Shown here piece after piece: positions 8,074-45,056 of a stretch of DNA of 45,941 bases. The first letter of the stretch is position 1; every line of letters starts with the position of its first letter. A program made the translations under genes and the position numbers. Below the pieces are notes generated by a model. It had not been told where the DNA came from. It ran no database searches and saw nothing but the letters and a program-made list of their open reading frames with translations. Source of the DNA: an uncultured Thermomicrobium sp. (lineage in GTDB: Bacteria; Chloroflexota; Chloroflexia; Thermomicrobiales; Thermomicrobiaceae); the NCBI GenBank assembly GCA_938028665.1, contig CALIMB010000075.1, positions 1 through 45,941 of the forward strand. The letters are read 5' to 3'.

Positions 8074-9828
8074 CTACCGGTATCCTGAGCCGCTTGCTGC
8101 CCGCACGCTCCACTGCTCGATCCCAACCCGTGTCCGTACGACAAGCGCATTGATCGCAGGTATCTGAAGTCGCTCGGAACGTACCACAAGAACGTCGGGA
8201 GAAGCGATCGGGAGCACCGGAAGATCGCTGAGCACCTGCTCTTCGATGGCCCGGTAGAGTCCGCTACGCTGCGCCCGGTCAGTCGTCCCCACTGCCTCAA
8301 CCAGGAGACGATCGACATCTGGACTTTGGTAGTGACCGAAGTTGAGTCCATCGAAAAAGGAATCACTCGACCAGACTGCAGACTGATCGGGATCGATGTC
8401 CCAGAGCACACCGATCAGCAGGGCATCAAAGTCCCGCTCCTGCGTTGCCCGACGACGTACCTCGCCCCAAGAGGCCAAGTCGAGTTGGACGTCGACGCCG
8501 ATCGTGCGCCACTGTTGCTGCAAGAGCTCAGCCACGGCGCGCCGGCTCGGATCAACCCCTGTCGCCAAGAGGTGGAACTGGAGACGGTGCCCCTCGCGGA
8601 CACGGATCCCATCGTCCCCCACGATCCAGCCGGCCTCGTCCAGCAAGCGCTGCGCTTCCGCTGGGTCGTACCGATAGCGCACCGGCGGCTCACCAGCCGC
8701 CCAAGACGCTGGCGGCTGAAGCCCCTCCGCGACACGCGCCCGCTCGCCCCACACCTTCTCGACAATCGCCGCACGGTCGATTCCGAGAAGCAACGCCTTA
8801 CGAATGCGTAGATCAGTGAACAGCTTCGTCTTCGCTGGATCAAGCTGCAGGGCCACGAGCACCAGCTCATAGCCCGGAAAGCGCTCGACGGTAACCCCGC
8901 GTAGCGCCGGAAGCTGACTCGCCTGGGCAGGGTCAAGTATCGCCCAATCAATCGTTCCATCCTGTAGTCCTCGGGCAAGTTCGTCCAGTGTACTGACAAT
9001 ACGGTATATGTACTGGGGGGCGGCTGGCGTACCCCGATAGTAGTCCGGATTCGCACGGAAAGTGAGCGAAACACCGCGCATCCATTGGGTGAGAATAAAT
9101 GGTCCCGTTCCGACCGCCGAAGAGAGCCCAAAGGGATCGGTTACCAGCTGTTGTGGGAGCACCGTCCCAAGCACATGTTCGGGAATGATCCCAATCGTCC
9201 CCAGGGTGGGTAAGAAGGAAGCATCGGGGCGCATCAGCGTGATCCGCACCGTGTGGCTGTCGACGATGTCCACCGATTTGACGCGCTCGGCAAGCCGCGA
9301 GTAGCGAGGCGAACGGACATCAGGATCGAGAAGTCTTGTATAGGTAAACGCGACGTCACTTGCTGTGAACGGTTGCCCGTCATGCCAGCGGACATTCTCG
9401 CGCAAGTGGAACGTGTAGGTTGTCCCGTCATCACTGATGTCCCAGGAAGTGGCAAGTGCTGGCACAGGCTCGCCGCTTGTGGGATCAAGTGAGACTAAGC
9501 CGTCGAAGACAAGGCGGCTCAGAGCATCAGAAAGTGGATCAGCAACGAACAGTGGATTGAGGGTACGCGGCTCCTCAAACCCTGCCTCGACGATCCCGCG
9601 CTCTCCCGGGACACTGGGCGTCGGTGTGACCGGCGTCACCGCGGGTGGAATGGAACTTCCTGTGACGCTGCCAGGTCTTTCCGGAGTTGCTGTCACGACG
9701 AGGTTGGGAGCGCTAGGAGTCGAGGGGAGAACCTCTGATGGCGTGACCTCCGTTGCTGGACCACGGCGGCAGGCAAAGGCGAGCACAAGCACAAGAACGA
9801 TCCAAAGAACGGACGAACGCTGACGCAC
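8074..9828 (-). CDS. Peptide-binding ABC transporter lipoprotein (SBP family 5)
   Basis: A 584-residue extracytoplasmic solute-binding protein of the OppA/DppA family. GTG 9828 follows CAGGAG. A basic N-terminus and hydrophobic core lead to LAFAC at residues 16-20, a slightly atypical lipobox, so Cys20 probably anchors it to the membrane. A Thr/Pro-rich linker follows to about residue 72. The mature domain shows the family pattern: LNPLFVADP, VFDGLVSLDPTSGEPVPALA, YTFHLRENVRWHDGQPFTASDV and the later hinge region FTDLRIRKALLLGIDR. Upstream is a weak TTGACC-like -35 box. It lies 277 bases before oppD, which suggests but does not prove that OppDF serve it. Ligand unknown; dipeptides, oligopeptides or nickel-type ligands occur in the family. 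Confidence 0.88.
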   Translation of the reverse strand: MRQRSSVLWIVLVLVLAFACRRGPATEVTPSEVLPSTPSAPNLVVTATPERPGSVTGSSIPPAVTPVTPTPSVPGERGIVEAGFEEPRTLNPLFVADPLSDALSRLVFDGLVSLDPTSGEPVPALATSWDISDDGTTYTFHLRENVRWHDGQPFTASDVAFTYTRLLDPDVRSPRYSRLAERVKSVDIVDSHTVRITLMRPDASFLPTLGTIGIIPEHVLGTVLPQQLVTDPFGLSSAVGTGPFILTQWMRGVSLTFRANPDYYRGTPAAPQYIYRIVSTLDELARGLQDGTIDWAILDPAQASQLPALRGVTVERFPGYELVLVALQLDPAKTKLFTDLRIRKALLLGIDRAAIVEKVWGERARVAEGLQPPASWAAGEPPVRYRYDPAEAQRLLDEAGWIVGDDGIRVREGHRLQFHLLATGVDPSRRAVAELLQQQWRTIGVDVQLDLASWGEVRRRATQERDFDALLIGVLWDIDPDQSAVWSSDSFFDGLNFGHYQSPDVDRLLVEAVGTTDRAQRSGLYRAIEEQVLSDLPVLPIASPDVLVVRSERLQIPAINALVVRTRVGIEQWSVRAASGSGYR

Positions 9829-32997: not shown

Positions 32998-34425
32998 TCA
33001 GAGGATGAACTTGCTCAAGTCCTCGTCGGCGACGATCTGCCCGACGCGCTGTCGCACGTACTCAGCATCGATTCGCAGCGTCTGACCGGCCAGTTCTGGT
33101 GCCCGGAAGCTGATATCCTCGATGACCTTCTCCATGATCGTCGCCAGACGCCGAGCACCGATGTCTTCTGCACGGCTGTTGACCAGAGCAGCAAGCCGGG
33201 CAACCTCACGCAGTCCCTCATCAGTAAACTCGAGTTCCACACCCTCGACCCGCAGCAGCTCACGGTACTGCCGCGTGAGAGCATTCTCCGGCACTGTGAG
33301 GATGCGGTAGAGGTCATCCTCTGTCAAACGATGGAGCTCAACGCGAATAGGGAATCGCCCTTGGAGCTCCGGGATCAGGTCGGATGGGCTTGCATTGTGG
33401 AAGGCGCCGGCAGCGATGAACAGAATATGATCGGTGCGCACTGGGCCGTAGCGCGTCATCACCACCGAACCTTCAACAATCGGCAAGAGATCTCGTTGCA
33501 CCCCTTCGCCTGAGACATCCGGCCCGTAGTCACCGTCCGTGGTAATCAACTTGTCGATCTCATCGATGAAGACGATCCCACTCTCCTCCGCCCGCTTGAT
33601 CGCCGCCTCGACAACTGCATCGAAGTCGACCAGCCGCTGGGCTTCTTGCTGCGTTAAGATGCGGCGAGCTTCGCGGATCGAAACACGACGTGTCCGGCGT
33701 CGTGTCTGGAGTGACTCGAGCAGTTCCGCGACCGTGTCTTGGAATTCATCGAGATCAACTCCGCCATTCTCCGCATACGGCGTAACGAAGAGATCGAACT
33801 CAGTCTCAAGGTCGAGCTCGATCGTCTCGTCTTCCAGTCCATCACGCGCGAGGAGGTCAAGTAAGCGTCGCCGTTCCCGAGCCATTCGCCGCTCGCGTTT
33901 GCGGCGCTCTTCGGGCGCCTCACTTTGGCGGTCACACTCCTCATCTTGCCCATTCTGCTTTGCGCGCCGTCGTTCACGTTGCTCGACCAGAAGATCAACG
34001 AGTCGCTGTAGTGCAGCCCGTGAGGCTTCCTCACGAACCGCTTCCAGGCGTTCGCCATGGAGCATGCTGATACTCGTTTCGACGAGCTCGCGGATGATCG
34101 ACTCCACATCGCGTCCGACGTAACCAACCTCGGTGAACTTCGTCGCCTCCACCTTGACAAACGGCGCATCGACCAGCTTGGCGACTCGTCGGGCAATCTC
34201 GGTTTTGCCAACGCCGGTTGGACCAATCATCAGAATATTCTTTGGCACAATATCGCGCCGCAGGTCTTCTGGCAGCTGCTGCCAGCGCCAGCGGTTACGA
34301 ATCGCAATTGCGACCGCACGCTTTGCCTCCTCCTGGCCGACAATGTACCGATCGAGCTCGGCGACGATCTCGGCTGGAGTCAGCGGAATGGCACGCCGCT
34401 CAGGGCGAACGCTTGGTGTCATCAA
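32998..34425 (-). CDS. hslU: ATP-dependent protease ATPase subunit HslU (ClpY)
   Basis: HslU is the AAA+ unfoldase that feeds substrates to HslV. 475 residues from ATG 34425 (34434 and 34443 are alternatives; none has a strong ribosome site). Walker A GPTGVGKT is at about 67-74, pore-loop GYVGRD at 100-105, the charged I-domain occupies the middle, Walker B is [10 protein letters not shown], and the C-terminal tail ends in DLSKFIL, the HslV-docking end. It overlaps hslV by 26 bases, so the two are coupled. The I-domain is rich in Arg/Glu. Confidence 0.95.
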
Positions 34426-34993
34426 CCTGTTCATCGGTCTCACACTCTGGTGGTGCGGTGAGAAGCGTCACCGCGTGATTGGTATAGACGCAGAGGTCAG
34501 CGGCCACCTCCATCGCAGCGCGCGCAATCTCTGCTGCGCTCATCCGCGTGTGTCGCAACAAGGCACGGGCTGCTGCCGCAGCGTAGGGCCCACCAGTCCC
34601 GATCGCAGCGATCCCATCGTCCGGTTCGATCACATCGCCGTCACCGGAGATCATCAGGAGTTGGCGAGGATCAGCTACAAGCAGCTGGGCTTCCAGTCGT
34701 CGCAGGTAGCGGTCGGTTCGCCATTCCTTAGCCAGCTCAACGGCTGCACGACGGAGATCACCATCGCAGGCGCGCAGATGCTGCTCGAACTTCTCGAATA
34801 GCGTCAACGCATCCGCAACTGCACCTGCAAAACCCGCCAGCACTCGTCCACCGGCAAGGGCACGGATCTTCCGCGCCTGGCGCTTGAGTACCACGTCACC
34901 CGCCGTTACTTGGCCATCTCCGGCAACCGCAACCTGCCCATCCCGAAGAACACCCAGGATGGTCGTCCCATGCCGGACTCTGCCCTCGTGCAC
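34400..34993 (-). CDS. hslV: ATP-dependent protease peptidase subunit HslV (ClpQ)
   Basis: HslV is the N-terminal-threonine peptidase that forms double hexamers. 197 residues. The catalytic Thr10 begins [10 protein letters not shown] and is followed by [16 protein letters not shown] and [12 protein letters not shown], all standard. GTG 34993 has AGGAGG nine bases upstream and no nearer start codon, so nine residues must be removed to expose the threonine; T. maritima HslV also has a short propeptide. It follows topA by 57 bases. Confidence 0.95.
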
Positions 34994-35049
34994 GCTCTGT
35001 GCCTCCTGCGGCCGGGGTGGCCGTCAACTCTTCAAGTATACTCCCTTTT

Positions 35050-41665: not shown

Positions 41666-41766
41666 AAATGCAACGAGATCGCCACATCTGCGTGCCCAAC
41701 ATCGTTATGCTCCAAGACAGGTACAAGAGAAAACTCTTCGTGCAGCCCCGTACTCCTCCTCACGAC

Positions 41767-41813
41767 CGGGCGGCACCGCGCCCCCACCGGTGCCGCCCGC
41801 CTCTTTTCTTCCG
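41767..41813 (+). terminator. Strong intrinsic terminator after the histidine kinase
   Basis: A perfect 12-base stem CGGGCGGCACCG/CGGTGCCGCCCG with a nine-base loop is followed by CCTCTTTTCTTCC. It lies about 100 bases after the kinase stop. The rest of 41666-42020 holds only this element, the next promoter, and no gene. Confidence 0.85.
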
Positions 41814-41948
41814 CATGAGGAAACCAATCGTAAAGTCGGATGATGAAACCACCCGGGATCCTTCTGCGTCATACTCATGAGGAGGTAAAGGGTAGACGTA
41901 GGCTGTCATGCACGGAGGCACTCGGGTGTTTACCGTATGAGGGGAAGG

Positions 41949-41977: not shown

Positions 41978-42020
41978 GGATGCGCTGCCGAAACGGTCGA
42001 ACGAACGGAAGGAGGTCACA

Positions 42021-44519
42021 ATGCAAACCGGACGGCGACCGTCAAGGCTGACGCGACTGCTCACGGCACTGCTACTGACAACCAGTAGTTTCTTTGCATT
42101 GATCTCGCATGCGAGTGGAGCCCCGCCCCTGAGCGAGCAACAGTCCCGCGTGACATTTGCTGCTGTCTACAACGGAGAGACACTTCCTGGCAACGTAGGA
42201 CCGATCTGGAGCACCGTGATCATCCAGAACCTCGAGGCATTACCCATCCAGATTCGCCTGCGCAATCAGCGCACCGGTGGCACGAGTACTAGCCCGTTCA
42301 CCCTCGCCCCACGCGCTGCTCGTGCCTTTACAGCAGCGGAATTGGGCGGATTTGGTCTCGTGCCGAGTGGAGGTAGCGCTGGCCTTATTGTGGAGGCCGA
42401 GTTTACCGAGGCAAGCCGCTCCATCCTTACTGAGCTTGGTATCTGCAGCCTGTTCGCTTGCAGTCCGGCAATCGCTGCGGTTGAGAAACACGGTGTACCC
42501 AGCCCGCTGGGCAACGATGCCCGTACAAGCAGCGCTTTCCAGAGCGTCTCTGGCTCCACCGGGATGCGTGACGATGATTGGCAAGCTGCCAACCAAGGCC
42601 GAAATTGGGTCCTGCCAGTGGTCCAGACCAACAACGATTGGAACACCATCATCAAGGTTACTAATCTGCGCAACCAGCAGAACCAGGTGACAGTCACCCT
42701 GCAACGCTCACGTGGCGTCACCGTGGGGAACGCAACCTATACGCTAACCCAGACCATCGGTGCTGGTCAGACCTGGACGATCGATCTTTCTACGATCGTC
42801 CCAGCAGAGTGGGTCGGGGCTGCCTTCATCGACGCCCAGATGATGGGGATCGCAGTGGTCGCCGAGCGTTACAAGCCAACGTGGCGCATGCTCCTCACGA
42901 ATGAGGGTATCCCACGGAGCACGGCGACAACCCGGTACGCTCCGGTGGTGTTCCGTGACTACAACAACTGGAACACCGGCATCACCTTGGTGAATCTCGA
43001 CACGACAAATACCAATACCCTGACACTCACCTACTACGACCGGAACGGCGCAGTGCAGGTCGTGCCACCGGAGCTCGGATCGATTACCTTACAGCCTGGG
43101 GAGAGCGCCTTCATCTACCGACCCGACATCAGTACTACTCCCAGCCTTGACCCCGCACGGGTCAACGCAGTGGTGATTAGTGGTCAGCGCCCCTTTGCTG
43201 CCGCCGTTGATGAGGTCAAGTACCTGGCTGGCCCCGGCCAGGGCCAGGCGATGAGCTACATCGCACCGCTCGCACCCGACGTTGCCGGCAGCAAGCAAGC
43301 TTGGACAGCTGCTGAGACACAAGCACGCACGGCCGGACAGGTAACGGGCCGGAGCTGGTTTACCCACACCCTGGCTCTCCCGCTCTTCCAGGTCGGCGAT
43401 AGCACGGGGCAGGGAGATGTCAGTGGCTTTACACTCTTCAACCCCACCGCGCGACAGCAGCTGGCCAACGTGCAGCTCCTTGCCGCAAACGGAGCTCCCG
43501 TCACGCCAAGCCAGGTCGGAACCAGCGAGAATCCGGTGCTTGTCGCCGTGCCTGCTGGTGGCTATGCGGTCATCTACCCTTACTCGAGCGACTTTGGCAC
43601 GACATTTAACGCGGCACCACGGAACTTTACCGGCACCGCCTTGATTGGCGTGACCGATGGGACAGGCAGTGGTACCGGCTTTCTGGTCGCCGTTTCTAAT
43701 GTCGTCAACTATCAGGTGCAAGGTGATGGCTCCGGTGTCTTTGTCCTGACGCCGACCCGGAACCCTGCTCTCACGCTGACCAACTTCCAGCTTCTCCTGC
43801 AACCGAACGTCACCTTGGCCACCGTCAACACCAACGTCCCCTTCGCGGTAACGCTGACGAGCAGTGGGAACCCACTTGCTGGCCGAACCATCCGCTTCCA
43901 GATCAGTAGTGAGGGACAACCCCAAGTTACCCCCACGATGGGTACGAGCGATATCGACGGCCACGTCACTACAACAGCCACGAATAGTCAGCCGGTTACC
44001 AACACTGTGACTGCCTGGTGGGACCTCAATGGCAATGGCTCTCAGGATGCCACCGAGCTGTCTGATACGAGCCGTGTGACCTGGGTGGCAGCAGGCCAGC
44101 TTTCAGGCACGGTAACGGTGAAGCGGAATAACACCCCAATTACAACGGTACCCCAGAGCGACCTCGCCGGAAATAACACGGTTACCGTGCAGGTCGAGTG
44201 TGACATTAATCCAGACACACCGACCGGTGTGCCCATCCTGCTGCAATTCACAACAGCCGATCACAACACCGGCACGAATAATGTGCAACCGAAGGCGCGT
44301 TGGGCAACTCAACAATCAGCGAGCTCTTCTGGCCTCATGAGCCTAACGACGGGTGCCAGTAACATTGGATCGACAAGATTGGTTCTGGTTGCCGGCGATG
44401 CAAACGCCGCCGGCGGAGACCAGTTCACAATTTCCTGCTTCCTCGACTATGGACTCACCGGTGTTCTGGAGCCAACGGATCCAGTCCTTGGCACGGCAAC
44501 CATCACGGTTACATCATAG
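42021..44519 (+). CDS. Large secreted repeat protein of unknown function with Ig-like C-terminus
   Basis: An 832-residue exported protein that I do not recognise by name. Residues 1-33 form a signal peptide (basic start, hydrophobic core, ASGA end). The body has four similar beta-rich units, roughly at 42-165, 195-300, 305-415 and 448-575; units 2 and 3 share W-N-T-x-I-x-x-x-N-L and all share a hydrophobic PF/AV-type block near the end. From about 598 to 690 is a Big_1-like Ig domain with PLAGRTIRF and SDIDGHVTT; WWDLNGNGSQDATE (666-679) resembles a calcium-binding loop. Residues 690-832 are a second beta-rich domain. No anchor or sorting motif is seen, so it is probably released or loosely surface-bound. 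ATG 42021 follows AAGGAGGT. Confidence 0.75.
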   Translation: MQTGRRPSRLTRLLTALLLTTSSFFALISHASGAPPLSEQQSRVTFAAVYNGETLPGNVGPIWSTVIIQNLEALPIQIRLRNQRTGGTSTSPFTLAPRAARAFTAAELGGFGLVPSGGSAGLIVEAEFTEASRSILTELGICSLFACSPAIAAVEKHGVPSPLGNDARTSSAFQSVSGSTGMRDDDWQAANQGRNWVLPVVQTNNDWNTIIKVTNLRNQQNQVTVTLQRSRGVTVGNATYTLTQTIGAGQTWTIDLSTIVPAEWVGAAFIDAQMMGIAVVAERYKPTWRMLLTNEGIPRSTATTRYAPVVFRDYNNWNTGITLVNLDTTNTNTLTLTYYDRNGAVQVVPPELGSITLQPGESAFIYRPDISTTPSLDPARVNAVVISGQRPFAAAVDEVKYLAGPGQGQAMSYIAPLAPDVAGSKQAWTAAETQARTAGQVTGRSWFTHTLALPLFQVGDSTGQGDVSGFTLFNPTARQQLANVQLLAANGAPVTPSQVGTSENPVLVAVPAGGYAVIYPYSSDFGTTFNAAPRNFTGTALIGVTDGTGSGTGFLVAVSNVVNYQVQGDGSGVFVLTPTRNPALTLTNFQLLLQPNVTLATVNTNVPFAVTLTSSGNPLAGRTIRFQISSEGQPQVTPTMGTSDIDGHVTTTATNSQPVTNTVTAWWDLNGNGSQDATELSDTSRVTWVAAGQLSGTVTVKRNNTPITTVPQSDLAGNNTVTVQVECDINPDTPTGVPILLQFTTADHNTGTNNVQPKARWATQQSASSSGLMSLTTGASNIGSTRLVLVAGDANAAGGDQFTISCFLDYGLTGVLEPTDPVLGTATITVTS

Positions 44520-44561: not shown

Positions 44562-44601
44562 ACCGTCCTGGGGGAACCAGCCCCAGGACGGTTTCCCTTT
44601 T
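44562..44601 (+). terminator. Strong intrinsic terminator after the secreted protein
   Basis: A perfect 12-base stem ACCGTCCTGGGG/CCCCAGGACGGT with a seven-base loop is followed by TTCCCTTTT. It lies 43 bases after the stop codon. Confidence 0.82.
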
Positions 44602-44693
44602 GAGCCGCCTTGGTTACAATCCCGGCAGGGTATGCCAGGGCTGGACCTGGCACGAGTGGGTCAACAACCGGGAAGGGAGAGGAGCTTCACACG

Positions 44694-45056
44694 ATGGCAA
44701 CTGCGCAGCGGCAGTCATCTGCCTTCTGGGACTACGTAGCCGCCCTGGTGATGGTTATTGGTCTCTGGCTTGCCGCCTCCCCCTATGTCATTCCCGACGC
44801 CTGGCTGTACGATGTTACACGTCTCACTGCTACCTTCTTTGGCGGCTGCATCGTGATGTTGGCGATTGCCGAGCTGGCCCTCTCACCGGGGCTTCGCTGG
44901 GTTGGACTTGCCAATGTACCGATCGGTCTTTGGATCGTGGCTGCACCCTTTGTGAGTGGCGAGACAGCCAACGGTACGATGGTCGCGAGTATGGTGGTCT
45001 CTGGCTTGGCCGTCGCTATCCTGAGTCTGGCAAGCGTCTTCCTCGGCCGGCGGTGA
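44694..45056 (+). CDS. SPW-repeat-type small membrane protein
   Basis: A 120-residue membrane protein with four predicted helices. Two SPW-like repeats are seen, GLWLAASPYV (about 25-34) and GLWIVAAPFV in the second half, matching the SPW family (vitamin K epoxide reductase-unrelated, function unknown). ATG 44694 follows GGAGAGGAG; a longer reading begins before the likely promoter. A TACAAT -10-like box lies about 75 bases upstream. It stands alone between two terminator/gap regions. Confidence 0.75.
   Translation: MATAQRQSSAFWDYVAALVMVIGLWLAASPYVIPDAWLYDVTRLTATFFGGCIVMLAIAELALSPGLRWVGLANVPIGLWIVAAPFVSGETANGTMVASMVVSGLAVAILSLASVFLGRR

Follow-up and report, generated by a model that had tools for sequence, protein, structure and literature searches.

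A predicted secreted tetrad of ASRAH domains with an Ig-like tail in Thermomicrobium, a candidate glycan-binding protein of the cell envelope

What kind of protein is built from four diverged beta-rich units, exported by a Thermomicrobium cell and left without a family name? The question is raised by a gene on the forward (+) strand of the window, that is, the whole stretch of 45,941 nucleotides analysed here. The window belongs to a 2.78-Mb genome near Bacterium HR28, whose protein is 83% identical, and Thermomicrobium sp. CFH 73360 (78%). The open reading frame (42021..44519) starts from the ATG at 42021, stops at nt 44517–44519, encodes 832 residues and has full-length orthologues. A Shine-Dalgarno sequence, AAGGAGG (42009..42015, +), can be read 5 bases in front of the ATG and is conserved in the orthologues.

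An earlier note had described the product as an orphan surface or biofilm protein of an undescribed family. The gene itself is as that note described it. The reading frame is real, and the product starts with a signal peptide, which is followed by four beta units that have diverged, by a Big_1-like domain carrying a complete calcium-type loop and by a second Ig-like domain. A Pfam scan of the protein finds no enzyme domain, amidase included. Big_1 alone matches at E values up to 1, and neither PF07100 (ASRT) nor PF18986 (DUF5719) gives a direct match over its curated cut-off. Searches of PDB sequences with phmmer and hmmsearch gave no meaningful match.

By inspection, the N terminus is a Sec-type signal peptide, RR..LTRLLTALLLTTSSFFALI..ASGA, covering residues 1–34 (42021..42122, +) and lacking a lipobox cysteine; the first cysteine is residue 142. 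Export is thereby predicted. The mature protein has 799 residues, 83.8 kDa, a pI of 4.9 and 2.6% Glu. That the protein is secreted, and probably lies at the cell surface, is supported by the signal peptide, by the Ig-like domains at the C terminus and by relatives in which a protease of secreted type is part of the chain. No LPXTG, SLH or C-terminal helix anchor is seen in the protein, so that retention at the surface is a guess.

Fold of the four units

The units, all on the + strand, are U1, residues 43–158 (42147..42494), U2, residues 193–302 (42597..42926), U3, residues 303–418 (42927..43274), and U4, residues 448–580 (43362..43760). Raw pairwise BLOSUM scores between them are barely above those of shuffles and not significant alone. 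Profiles from 24 family members relate U2 to U3 (P 4e-14), U3 to U4 (1e-12), U2 to U4 (3e-8) and U1 to U3 (2e-4). The most diverged, U1, joins the others through a bridge profile, for which 18 distant Chloroflexota proteins supplied 72 units. In profile-profile comparison (hhalign) the bridge gives P values of 6.7e-8 for U1, 3.6e-17 for U2, 9.1e-23 for U3, 1.2e-16 for U4 and 1.2e-9 for ASRT, while reversed profiles and both Ig-like domains stay at noise. The four beta-rich units are, by these profiles, one domain.

That domain is, with high confidence, ASRAH. The ASRAH superfamily, of domains like the Anabaena sensory rhodopsin transducer (ASRT), was defined in 2009 by De Souza, Iyer and Aravind (PMC2739507). 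Its hallmarks are a sandwich of eight strands, an almost absolutely conserved Asn where strand 2 ends and an early Trp, and its members were predicted to bind sugars in a cleft on the side of a sheet (PMC2739507). Canonical PF07100 proteins were taken from Chloroflexota genomes for the comparison with ASRT. The pooled units match them with P 1.5e-5, and with P 1.3e-6 when tandem ASRT repeats are added, against about 0.9 for the reversed control. U3, the one unit modelled, was predicted from the 12 units of the window protein, L003 and L004. The model (m571b6895f922) has eight strands and moderate confidence (pLDDT 66.6, pTM 0.62). It matches Thermotoga TM1070 (1nc7) with a VIA Z of 10.6 and an rmsd of 3.4 over 107 aligned positions, and by Foldseek with E 8e-4 and probability 1.00, above unrelated structures. 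ASRT follows at Z 8.2 and carbohydrate-binding modules come next at Z 6.4.

The strand-2 Asn is present in every unit: N70 in 22 of 24 members (the other two have gaps), N215 in 22 of 24, and N325 and N474 in all 24; in the U3 model, N325 is the last residue of strand 2. The early Trp, which in the superfamily follows a polar residue where strand 1 begins, is clear in U2 alone (N195-W196, Trp in 16/24), and U1, U3 and U4 carry Tyr, Phe or another residue there. Each of U2, U3 and U4 has further conserved positions, which are W207, R283 and K285 in U2 (24/24), WNTG 317–320 and D397-x-VKY in U3, and the invariant columns D466, G469 and D569-G570 in U4.

ASRT and TM1070 (PF07100) are intracellular single-domain homotetramers. 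The window protein resembles them in the predicted fold of U3, the profile match and the conserved Asn. Unlike them, it is exported, carries four domains per chain and lacks the His and Cys, placed at the ligand, of the SHExxCxxN strand that marks ASRAH family 1 (ASRT-like), in whose place U3 has WNTGITLVN and U2 has WNTIIKVTN. The ligand residues of ASRT lie at Asn-7 and Asn-3; their U3 equivalents are N318 and T322, adjoining the invariant W317. DUF5719 (PF18986) matches the same Chloroflexota genes as the family alignment, one of them over its cut-off, and PF07100 matches overlap this gene set too. DUF5719 is probably the same kind of repeat, although the window protein does not reach PF18986. 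The description as an undescribed family must therefore be given up, because the units fit one known domain (PMC2739507), an outcome that the earlier note itself had named as evidence against it.

The tetrad, its tail and its relatives

Nor is the protein an orphan. Relatives occur in 26 of the 158 genomes of the class that were searched. Its own family, with 21 genomes, accounts for 20 of these, and the one family genome without a relative is 54% complete. Across the genus the gene is retained, with orthologues 69–83% identical in five other genomes, one of them cut by a contig end and one split into two frames. Orthologues in three genomes of a neighbouring genus are about 50% identical, and two further paralogues lie on contigs 71 and 2 of the same genome. 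Across a phylum sample, the family alignment has matches in 76 of 400 Chloroflexota genomes. Among viral contigs and plasmids, relatives were not found. Among the distant members are a four-unit subtilase (L069), proteins that differ in their N-terminal regions (L070, L071) and free-standing chains of about 480–540 residues.

Several members have features of their own. The split orthologue (L043, near nt 9380 in G123, a 99%-complete genome) differs by one base in a short G run; the break may be genuine or may come from a sequencing error. In paralogues such as L034 and L014, U1 is followed by an insert with a weak match to DUF4815 (PF16075), and 9 of 24 members match it. We do not assign DUF4815 to the window protein, which lacks the insert. 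At G421:C2:1804014-1805466 (L103, L108) two adjoining frames each encode two ASRT-type domains with a direct PF07100 match, a possible split tetrad.

Each of the 18 distant Chloroflexota proteins that were examined contains four units, neither more nor fewer. For each of 72 units (U2, U3 and U4 of 24 proteins) the nearest neighbour is the unit in the same position of another protein; mean identity in the family is 37% by position and 21% within one protein. Because the number is exact and identity follows position, the arrangement is old and fixed, unlike an expandable stalk. Secreted ASRAH forms were reported as dyads or tetrads only, and the tetrads were proposed to mimic the ASRT tetramer (PMC2739507). 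The four-unit rule and the position-kept identity likewise suggest a single-chain mimic of the ASRT tetramer, and a cytosolic tetramer whose subunits were joined for extracellular use.

The closest known arrangement is ASRAH family 2, in which secreted tetrads are fused to an N-acetylmuramoyl-L-alanine amidase in Roseiflexus, Chloroflexus and Herpetosiphon (PMC2739507). The window protein shares with it secretion, exactly four ASRAH domains, the phylum and the strand-2 Asn. It differs in having no amidase or other enzyme, in its C-terminal Big_1-like and second Ig-like domains and in an extra NGE..GP segment in unit 1. ASRAH family 3, the actinobacterial lipoproteins, combines a lipobox-Cys signal peptide with two ASRAH domains, a plan from which the window protein departs on both counts.

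The tail begins with a Big_1-like Ig domain, residues 586–690 (43776..44090, +), which the unit profiles do not match. Residues 595–667 match Big_1 (PF02369), as known from intimin-type and other surface proteins, with E 5.4e-7. The window protein, with 30.1 bits, stays below the Pfam cut-off of 34.9, and relatives with the same domain exceed it; the earlier assignment stands. The domain also differs from Big_1 in ending with an EF-hand-type loop, DLNGNGSQDATE, residues 668–679 (44022..44057, +). This loop, D668-x-N-x-N-G-x-x-D676-x-x-E679, has the full 12-residue pattern D-x-[DN]-x-[DN]-G-x-x-[DE]-x-x-E and is conserved in the same-genus orthologues and several paralogues. The calcium-loop feature read earlier is thus borne out as a motif, and the loop would be predicted to bind calcium. 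Residues 691–832 (44091..44516, +) form a second Ig-like beta sandwich, with AlphaFold pLDDT mostly 60–86 and generic Ig-like matches (Z 9.6). Many unrelated sandwiches match it, and no family is claimed. The full-length AlphaFold model from three sequences has pLDDT 40 and is usable for residues 690–832 only.

Within the genus, the Ig tail is 44–76% identical and U3 is 89–95% identical, so the tail evolves faster than the head. A head on a fast-evolving Ig stalk is a plan common to many adhesins, and the protein could hold cells in mats or biofilms by binding the polysaccharide of neighbours. Adhesins usually pair a variable tip with a conserved anchor, whereas here the head is the conserved part and an anchor is not visible. 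We regard an adhesin as unlikely; a biofilm role is possible.

In genus g5 (L047, L048, L049), the gene 5′ of the orthologue encodes another protein that looks secreted and has EF-hand-type loops as well as several Big_1 domains. This arrangement suggests a two-gene surface unit.

Control region and neighbouring genes

The earlier note gave the gene its own promoter and terminator. Upstream lies TGAAACC-N16-CGTCATA (41844..41873, +), whose boxes are invariant and whose spacing is fixed in six orthologous upstream regions that have otherwise diverged. In a search of 21 family genomes the motif has a single copy in each of the six Thermomicrobium genomes with the gene, always 5′ of it, and no copy elsewhere. 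The form TGAAAC-N16/17-CGTC is similar to the promoters that ECF sigma factors recognise, Bacillus SigW, SigX and SigM among them, and the factor is putatively of the ECF type. A literature search on ECF-like promoter motifs found no match. The gene's own promoter is accordingly retained as a conserved ECF-like site and not as a sigma-70 one, no sigma-70-like promoter being found before the gene. Before the paralogues the strict pattern finds no copy; one paralogue group (L035, L038, L042, L055) is preceded in four genomes by TGTAAC-N17-CGTT, which may be a further ECF-like site.

The terminator is confirmed as an intrinsic one, a strong hairpin with a 12-bp stem and a T tract (44562..44592, +). 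Stem and T tract are kept in four orthologues, with equivalents in L003, L004 and L046. The proposal of strong expression finds no support in codon usage, a weak test: codon adaptation is 0.64, rank 26 of the 29 window genes, compared with 0.73 for ribosomal proteins.

Further upstream, just 3′ of the histidine kinase gene, a 24-nt element, GCAGCCCCGTACTCCTCCTCACGA (41742–41765), is followed by a 12-bp hairpin (41767–41799), both on the + strand (41742..41799). Six of the 7 genus genomes contain the element, in one copy each, at this locus only and with 0 mismatches. The hairpin is likewise confined to the locus, and three of its pairs are kept by changes on both sides (covarying). An Rfam scan of the leader and of 41742–41799 found no riboswitch or other family. 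The region is a candidate RNA element or terminator, and the stretch CUCCUCCUC could pair with ribosome-binding sites.

Directly 5′ of the gene, also in same-genus orthologues, is a two-component pair, a PAS histidine kinase and a response regulator. The protein might bind wall fragments outside the cell and signal with this pair as an envelope sensor or co-receptor. The ECF-like promoter fits such a role, as does the proposal that intracellular ASRAH proteins are sensors (PMC2739507). But the kinase has PAS, HisKA and HATPase domains only (Pfam), with no clear external sensor. Its link to the gene is not kept, because in the next genus the neighbour is a Big_1 protein instead, and the gene's own promoter and terminator set it apart from the pair. 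A sensor is accordingly quite improbable.

Other neighbours are an SPW-domain membrane protein (PF03779) directly 3′ (44610–45053), kept at several same-genus loci, and an AAA ATPase with a proteasome-type protease, an HslU/HslV-like pair (33001–35023), which adjoins topoisomerase I and a mannose-1-phosphate-guanylyltransferase-like gene.

Predicted role at the cell envelope

We give about an even chance to a protein that is secreted, is no lipoprotein and presents a glycan-binding head on a short stalk of Ig-like domains. After Sec export it would be soluble or loosely held by the wall, and a place in the envelope is fairly probable. The four ASRAH sandwiches of one chain may assemble into a pseudo-tetramer that resembles the homotetramer of ASRT/TM1070, a packing drawn by analogy. 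Clefts on the sheet face would be lined by strand 2, and the conserved W-N-T-G strand of U2 and U3 would sit where ASRT has its ligand-touching SHExxCxxN strand. The two Ig-like domains would form the short stalk, the first ending in the calcium-type loop. The gene would be transcribed from an ECF-type promoter of its own and so probably responds to a signal from the envelope. Sugar binding itself, argued from the superfamily, has roughly equal odds either way. The absence of the ASRT His and Cys from the units counts against it, as do the two-component pair and the SPW protein, neighbours that give no hint of sugars.

S-layer-type coats are often made of extracellular arrays of beta sandwiches, and there are several paralogues per genome. 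The four sandwiches might thus form a lattice or coat as a structural wall or S-layer component that binds no free sugars. The wall of T. roseum is dominated by protein and has a regularly structured outermost protein layer (PMC2615216). However, the major T. roseum wall protein is reported at about 75 kDa, with Gly, Pro, Glu and Ala as abundant residues (PMC2615216). Identity with it is rejected on composition for the window protein, the one paralogue compared, which has a larger mass and low Glu. The codon usage is unlike that of an abundant protein. The invariants of U1–U4 (W, N, R/K, D) have polar or aromatic side chains and lie at strand 2 and the last strands, which is more like a binding site than packing alone. 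We think a wall or S-layer component improbable. It is far less probable that the protein-rich wall or the regular outer layer of Thermomicrobium, and perhaps that of further Chloroflexota, is built from ASRAH tetrads as an S-layer-like coat of single-chain pseudo-tetramers controlled by an ECF factor.

The protein is a new domain architecture within a family spread through the Chloroflexota. A fold and a predicted glycan binding can now be attached to large secreted proteins that are unnamed in Pfam and NCBIfam, and the main use of the finding is in naming this large group of 'hypothetical' surface proteins. In Thermomicrobium itself, the protein is a candidate component of a poorly understood envelope.
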